NCBI GenBank assembly: GCA_004321925.1
Contig: SCQH01000052.1
Location: 1-38,735 of the forward strand
Origin: Nitrospirota bacterium
GTDB taxonomy: Bacteria; Nitrospirota; Thermodesulfovibrionia; Thermodesulfovibrionales; UBA6898
Direction: 5' to 3'
Length of the DNA: 38,735 bases
Every line of letters starts with the position of its first letter. Positions within the stretch are counted from its first letter, which is position 1. The notes beneath the pieces were generated by a model. The model had not been told where the DNA came from. It was given only the letters and a program-made list of their open reading frames with translations, and did no database searches. Below, piece by piece: positions 288 to 17,532 of this stretch. A program made the translations under genes and the position numbers.

Positions 288-560
288 ATGACAAAGGTTG
301 AACTTATCGAAAAGATGGCAAAGGATGCGGACATCTCAAAGGCAGCAGCGGACAAGGCTCTTAATTCTTTCATGGACGGCATCAAGAAGGCCCTGAAGAA
401 AGGCAACAAAGTTACTCTTGTAGGGTTCGGGACTTTCTCTGTCGGCAAACGGGCTGCCAGGACAGGGCGCAATCCTCAGACTGGGGCAGTTCTTAAGATT
501 AAGGCTTCCAAGGCACCGAAGTTCAAGGCTGGGAAGGGCTTTAAGGACGCTATAAAGTAA
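288..560 (+). CDS. HU family DNA-binding protein
   Basis: Small basic histone-like protein that binds and bends DNA as a dimer in the nucleoid. The 90-residue product begins MTKVELIEKM and has the HU fold signature: an N-terminal helix-turn-helix dimerisation region, the core GFGTFSVGKRAAR, then the arm with GRNPQTG that inserts in the minor groove. A longer frame is open from 216, but the ATG at 288 follows a strong purine-rich ribosome-binding site and gives the normal family length, so I take it as the start. The stop is two bases before the glutaredoxin-like selenoprotein frame at 563, so the two are probably cotranscribed. HU and IHF subunits are close relatives; the length and the lack of IHF-specific features favour HU. 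Confidence 0.95.
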   Translation: MTKVELIEKMAKDADISKAAADKALNSFMDGIKKALKKGNKVTLVGFGTFSVGKRAARTGRNPQTGAVLKIKASKAPKFKAGKGFKDAIK

Positions 561-562
561 AC

Positions 563-772
563 ATGGCTCGCATCATCATTTATGGCAAGGCTGGCTGACC
601 CTATACCGAGAAGGCTATTTCAGCCTACCGGACAGCACAGTATTTTGATGTGAAACACGACCCCACAAAACTTGAAGAAATGCTTCTGCATTCCAAAGAC
701 ATCAGAAAGGTGCCGGTCATTATTGAGGACGGGAAAGTGGCAATAGGCTACGGAGGGTCTTGAGGGGTTTAA
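563..772 (+). CDS. Glutaredoxin-like selenoprotein with two Sec codons (UXX-stop type)
   Basis: Reading from ATG 563 gives 69 residues with in-frame TGA at 596-598 and 761-763 and a TAA stop at 770-772. The first TGA sits where glutaredoxins have the active-site Cys (IIIYGKAG-U-PYTEKA, compare CPYC/CPYT). The rest keeps the fold: a helix, then KVPVIIEDGKVAIGYGG with the cis-Pro VPVI. The second TGA is third from the end, giving C-terminal U-G-V-stop. From memory this matches small glutaredoxin-related selenoproteins called UXX-star; I could not search. AAGGA at 543-547 is a plausible ribosome-binding site, a little distant. Hairpins follow both TGAs; the second is a very good bacterial SECIS candidate. 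A decayed pseudogene is the alternative, but both TGAs fall at functional positions and nothing else is damaged. Likely a thiol/selenol redox protein in the cytoplasm. Confidence 0.82.
606..631 (+). promoter_or_regulatory. Candidate bacterial SECIS for first Sec codon
   Basis: Stem-loop inside the coding sequence, starting 7 bases after the first TGA. AGGCT (612-616) pairs with AGCCT (622-626) around loop ATTTC. CCG (606-608) pairs with CGG (629-631) as an outer stem, with a G610-C628 pair and a small internal mismatch between. The loop begins 18 nt after the TGA, which fits bacterial SECIS spacing, but the usual G in the first two loop bases is absent, so this element is weaker than the second. 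Confidence 0.5.
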
Positions 773-791
773 TCCCGATAGGTTATCGGGA
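773..791 (+). promoter_or_regulatory. Candidate bacterial SECIS for second Sec codon
   Basis: Perfect 8-bp hairpin TCCCGATA (773-780), loop GGT (781-783), TATCGGGA (784-791), starting directly after the TAA stop. The loop begins 17 nt after the second TGA and starts with G. From memory both match the bacterial SECIS rule (G in the first loop bases, loop about 16-37 nt after UGA). No T-run follows, so it is not a typical terminator. Confidence 0.7.
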
Positions 792-17417: not shown

Positions 17418-17425
17418 TAATTTTA

Positions 17426-17518
17426 CCCTTGGGGGAGGCATAAGGCCTGAGAGTTTCTCGTTTTAACGGGAGAGACCCCTTGAACCTGATACGGGCCATT
17501 CCGTCGTAGGGAACAGGG
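17426..17518 (+). ncRNA. TPP riboswitch (THI element)
   Basis: Aptamer that binds thiamine pyrophosphate and controls the downstream thi genes. The conserved parts are all present: GGGGGAGGC and GGCCTGAGAG in the pyrimidine-sensing arm, ACCCCTTGAACCTGAT, then ACGGG, and CGTAGGGAA near the 3' end. The outer stem P1 is CCCTTG (17426-17431) with CAGGG (17514-17518). A terminator follows 15 bases later, so control is by early termination of transcription when TPP is abundant. Confidence 0.96.
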
Positions 17519-17532
17519 ACAATGTAAAAGGC

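Follow-up and report, generated by a model that had tools for sequence, protein, structure and literature searches.

The window, that is, the whole stretch of 38,735 nt that was analysed, contains a frame of 69 codons on the forward strand that begins directly behind the gene for an HU-family DNA-binding protein (Table 1). If TGA is read as selenocysteine (Sec), the frame at 563-772 (+) is translated as MARIIIYGKAGUPYTEKAISAYRTAQYFDVKHDPTKLEEMLLHSKDIRKVPVIIEDGKVAIGYGGSUGV, followed by TAA. An earlier note on this DNA had proposed a short protein with two in-frame TGAs, and translation indeed yielded U12 and U67, together with all of the sequence elements that had been named, i.e., U-PYT, VPVI, GYGG and the C-terminal U-G-V-stop. 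The protein does not contain a single Cys, so that Sec12 and Sec67 must both take part in any thiol-type cycle within one chain. Under translation table 11 the frame is stopped, and it is absent from the list of open reading frames, which is also what one would expect if the two TGAs were ordinary stop codons in a decayed glutaredoxin (Grx) gene. Elsewhere in the window, a TPP riboswitch was detected at 17421-17530 (+) with a score above the Rfam gathering score.

Table 1. Features at the selenoprotein locus (positions in the window)
Feature	Position	Strand	Remarks
HU-family DNA-binding protein (90 aa), directly 5' of the selenoprotein CDS	288..560	+	Pfam; adjacency not conserved
CDS, UXX-star family 1 glutaredoxin-like selenoprotein, 69 aa (predicted)	563..772	+	TAA stop 770-772
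TGA, predicted Sec12, glutaredoxin active-site position (U-P-Y-T)	596..598	+	U in 75/79, C in 3/79, TAA in 1/79; Cys in other phyla
SECIS1 hairpin after first TGA (candidate)	612..626; stem 612-616/622-626, loop 617-621 AUUUC	+	stem conserved, compensatory changes
TGA, predicted Sec67, C-terminal UXX-stop motif (U-G-V-stop)	761..763	+	U in 79/79; Cys in L114
SECIS2 hairpin directly after stop codon (candidate)	773..791	+	8-bp stem, loop GGU, 17 nt after TGA 761-763

The protein matched the NCBIfam model NF041114, "UXX-star selenoprotein family 1", with 104.2 bits (cut-off 72; E 3e-30) over positions 1-70 of the 70 profile positions, and its membership in this family is practically certain. It also scored just above the cut-off of the broader model NF041212 ("Uxx-star family glutaredoxin-like (seleno)protein") and above that of Pfam Glutaredoxin PF00462 (24.7 vs. 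a gathering score of 22.9). The two-Sec pattern of NF041114, with one Sec at UxxT and the other in U-X-X-stop, is found in the window protein and in 75 of the 79 members that were compared. In Table 1 of a 2026 review, NF041114 appears as "Distant Grx-like protein 1" with the motif UxxT and "No. of Sec" 2, and the two-Sec design is thus already documented at the family level (PMC13188914). Therefore, the protein is not of a new kind, the view of the earlier note that it had been overlooked is not supported, and the expectation that a gene finder would report nothing here no longer holds, because NCBI now has a dedicated model for the family. What is known is the family and its two-Sec design; what is unusual is confined to some local details of the window copy. 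The case illustrates that genuine genes with two Sec, which table-11 gene callers miss, can be found by reading raw sequence.

Matches to NF041114 above the cut-off were present in 78 of 298 related genomes, which places the family widely in Nitrospirota. The family is enriched in genomes with selA, which was present in 70 of the 78 carriers vs. 151 of the 220 non-carriers (Fisher p 1.5e-4). From the matching loci, 79 full sequences were delimited, including that of the window, with a script that required a U-X-X-stop end. Four loci failed: one is longer by one residue at the end (L080, UGVR-stop), two have broken frames (L097 and L100), and one is degenerate (L098). Position 67 is U in all 79 sequences, the U-X-X-stop end being the delimiting criterion, and position 12 is U in 75, Cys in three and TAA in one. 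All other codons of the 79 homologues are free of TGA. The single TAA (L027:1525-1527), in a copy that has kept the C-terminal TGA, probably reflects a dead copy or an assembly error. Altogether, 69 of the 79 members are free of Cys, so that the two Sec are the sole chalcogen pair there.

Homologues with Cys or Sec at both positions, for which the earlier note had suggested a search, were found, and exchange occurs at position 12 as well as at position 67. In a search of named genomes, which used back-translated Cys codons and was thus biased toward Cys forms, members with Cys12 and Sec67 were retrieved in Pelotomaculum, Desulfovibrionales, Brocadiia, Acidobacteria and Syntrophus records, and one homologue, in a deltaproteobacterial MAG (L114:2502-2735), has Cys at both Sec positions. 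The NG86 dN/dS ratios between the window gene and its relatives are 0.06-0.12, rough values given that dS exceeds 1 and is near saturation, and they indicate that the protein is constrained across both TGAs. Taken together, the profile match, the conservation of both TGA positions, the lack of any other TGA codon and the dN/dS ratios are far beyond chance and, as far as sequences can tell, confirm 563-772 as a true two-Sec glutaredoxin-like gene.

The genome of 3.2 Mb, with a computed completeness estimate of 100%, encodes the machinery for Sec insertion, for which the earlier note had advised to look: selA and selB lie together on one contig, a tRNA-Sec with the anticodon UCA is present, and selD carries an in-frame TGA of its own, with a hairpin that folds with a G-containing loop.

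Both TGAs of the window gene are followed by hairpins. According to the published model, a bacterial SECIS element has a loop of 3-9 nt, a stem of 4-16 bp, a spacing of 16-37 nt and an MFE <= -7.5, and one of the two leading nucleotides of the loop must be a G (PMC13188914). The hairpin behind the second TGA (SECIS2) complies with all of these rules in the window, with its loop GGU, a stem of 8 bp, a spacing of 17 and -12.1 kcal/mol. Across the family, a stem of 6 to 8 bp immediately past the stop codon is found in most members, and the loop contains a G in 79 of 79. Double changes occur at all six tested pairs (48 cells vs. 14 in shuffles), and 0/500 shuffles attained the score of the real alignment. 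The hairpin behind the first TGA (SECIS1) has a 5-bp stem and a 5-nt loop throughout the family, the loop being mostly AGGUC. Its pairs are kept in 92% of the cells, with 19 double changes vs. 4.9 in shuffles (0/500); for both hairpins, the shuffle control ignores relatedness. Structures slid along the sequence score far lower than either hairpin. The G rule is strictly followed in SECIS1 by 66 of the 75 members with Sec12. In the window, the stem of 5 bp, the spacing of 18 and the MFE of -10.6 agree with the model, while the loop AUUUC, which lacks a G, violates it.

These results bear on the decayed Grx gene mentioned above. The presence of the sel genes, the covariation of both hairpins, and the fixed positions of both TGAs in 75 of 79 homologues across the phylum, with none elsewhere, render this explanation highly improbable for the window gene. 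At the family level, stops that arose by chance or in pseudogenes are refuted by the conservation, the dN/dS ratios and the sel genes.

In 25 of the 79 members (L026, L029, L036 and 22 more loci), the true stop codon is itself a TGA, nine bases after the Sec TGA. Hairpin spacing would explain why, in such U-X-X-TGA members, the second-last TGA is read as Sec and the last one as stop, because the hairpin is nearer to the latter than the published minimum of 16 nt. These loci thus represent a natural test of SECIS spacing.

The window copy differs from the rest of the family in several respects. Codon 19 is ATT (Ile), whereas 70 of the 79 members have Arg (R19I), and it is this codon that turns the SECIS1 loop AGGUC into AUUUC. 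The window copy is the sole Sec12 member among 75 without any G in this loop, which makes it a natural test of the importance of the apical G. Furthermore, its residue 46 is Asp instead of the Gly shared by all 78 remaining sequences (G46D), and it lacks a Shine-Dalgarno motif at normal spacing, unlike 71 of the 79 members. Among four congeners, only one carries a copy (G001, locus L097), in which a small deletion and frameshift lie just ahead of the C-terminal Sec, and no match was found in the other three (G002-G004). In view of this frameshifted copy and the three genomes without a match, constraint may be slackening in the genus, or assembly errors may contribute.

These peculiarities raise the question of whether the family is functional but the window copy is being lost, so that Sec insertion at codon 12 is weak or failing and yields truncated or scarce protein. 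The G-less SECIS1 loop, G46D, the missing Shine-Dalgarno motif and the state of the gene in the congeners all point in this direction. However, all SECIS1 stem pairs are kept, SECIS2 is canonical, the frame is intact, and dN/dS between the window and its congener is 0.12, a rough value like the others. In addition, some accepted bacterial SECIS elements violate the model (PMC13188914), the deletion in the congener could be an assembly error, and the gap of two bases to the HU gene permits translational coupling. We therefore consider an ongoing loss of the window copy rather unlikely.

The start codon ATG of the selenoprotein gene indeed lies two bases after the HU stop codon (558-560), as the earlier note had pointed out, and Pfam confirmed the identity of HU. 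Translational coupling to HU may replace the missing Shine-Dalgarno motif. A meaning of this placement is not supported: HU adjoins the gene at no other locus examined, and an operon of HU and the selenoprotein as a functional unit is rejected. In the congener with a copy, the nearest HU gene is about 1.5 kb away, with a 421-aa ORF on the reverse strand in between. Judged by ORF layout alone, no conserved gene neighbourhood was seen. The genus has several HU paralogues. In the window's genome, a second HU copy (G000:C75:5624-5893) shares 96% protein identity with that at 288-560, at only 86% DNA identity, and the similarity between the two already sets in about 24 bases upstream of the start codon.

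An AlphaFold2 model based on 15 sequences has a pLDDT of 93.5 and a pTM of 0.80 and exhibits a Grx core. The best matches among solved structures are glutaredoxins, i.e., cGrx2 (4tr0), Synechocystis GrxA and NrdH (Z about 9, rmsd 1.7-1.9), and the weaker matches include ArsD structures. The structural alignment ends at residue 65, and Sec67 is placed just beyond the matching part. The last block of the model, which closes the Grx core, has a mean pLDDT of 92, and the second Sec thus does not clearly sit on a free tail, as opposed to the flexible end assumed in the earlier note. Sec67 may face Sec12.

Based on these observations, we propose the following mechanism for this single-domain protein with a Grx fold. 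SelB and tRNA-Sec would decode both TGAs with one hairpin behind each, the second of which lies past the stop codon. Sec12 would attack an oxidised substrate, and the resulting intermediate would be resolved by Sec67, which is placed where the Grx core ends and glutaredoxins have the GG motif, through formation of a Sec12-Sec67 diselenide. In the relatives with Cys12, a selenenylsulfide would be formed instead of the diselenide. The oxidised protein would be recycled by a thioredoxin-type reductase and not by glutathione (GSH). Decoding in the organism, the proximity of Sec12 and Sec67, and the reaction are all steps that we infer. Neither gshB (TIGR01380) nor Glu_cys_ligase (PF04262, gshA type 1) was found in the genome, which argues against a GSH-driven cycle, although other types of gshA or GSH uptake could still sustain one. 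For the whole statement, namely, a member of NF041114 with both TGAs decoded that acts as a Sec12-Sec67 diselenide reductase recycled without glutathione, we estimate a probability of about 0.55. The narrower combination of a Cys-free Grx fold with a GSH-independent intramolecular diselenide and a G-less SECIS1 (AUUUC) that still directs Sec at the first TGA is tentative and, on balance, doubtful.

The main competing explanation accepts the family membership but regards the two Sec as a pair of ligands for soft metals or metalloids (Hg, As, Cu), serving in trafficking or detoxification without a catalytic diselenide. Metal binding or unknown substrates have been suggested for UXX-star proteins (PMC13188914), ArsD structures are among the weaker fold matches, and the family has U-P-x-T and no dithiol C-P-x-C. 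The cis-Pro VPV and a start (K-x-G-U-P) that resembles that of Grx fit better with a redox function, as do the nearest structural matches, Grx and NrdH, and the ORF layout around the gene revealed no conserved neighbour. Hence, a metal-ligand role appears unlikely, if somewhat less so than loss of the window copy. Should the proposed diselenide between Sec12 and Sec67 exist, the protein would represent a diselenide redox protein of very small size.

Several known systems can be compared with the window protein. In searches of the main text of GOS 2008, UXX-star family 1 was not found under that name, and no phage match was found. Classical glutaredoxins (E. coli Grx3; cGrx2, 4tr0) resemble the window protein in the fold (Z about 9, rmsd 1.7-1.8), the start of the active site and the cis-Pro VPV. 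In contrast to them, it has Thr instead of the second active-site Cys, its chain ends just past the GG region, where the second Sec is located, and gshA (type 1) and gshB were not found in its genome. A Sec-containing glutaredoxin with UxxC and one Sec has been described (Kim 2011, as cited in PMC13188914); it shares the active-site Sec with the window protein, which, however, has UxxT and two Sec. Thioredoxin reductase, to which the earlier note likened a possible Sec relay, offers an analogy only, as neither a flavin nor an NADPH domain is present in the window protein. UXX-star families 2 and 3 and the HUGP/GUXX-star fusion (NF041211, NF047338 and NF045501) have the C-terminal UXX-star and the Grx-like core in common with the window protein, but its scores of 31-36 bits are far below their cut-offs of 97-325. 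By comparison, members of NF041114 have the same length, the same U-P-Y-T and C-terminal U-G-V-stop, and the same two Sec, and the window copy departs from them in the SECIS1 loop AUUUC without G, in R19I and G46D, and in the HU gene directly upstream.
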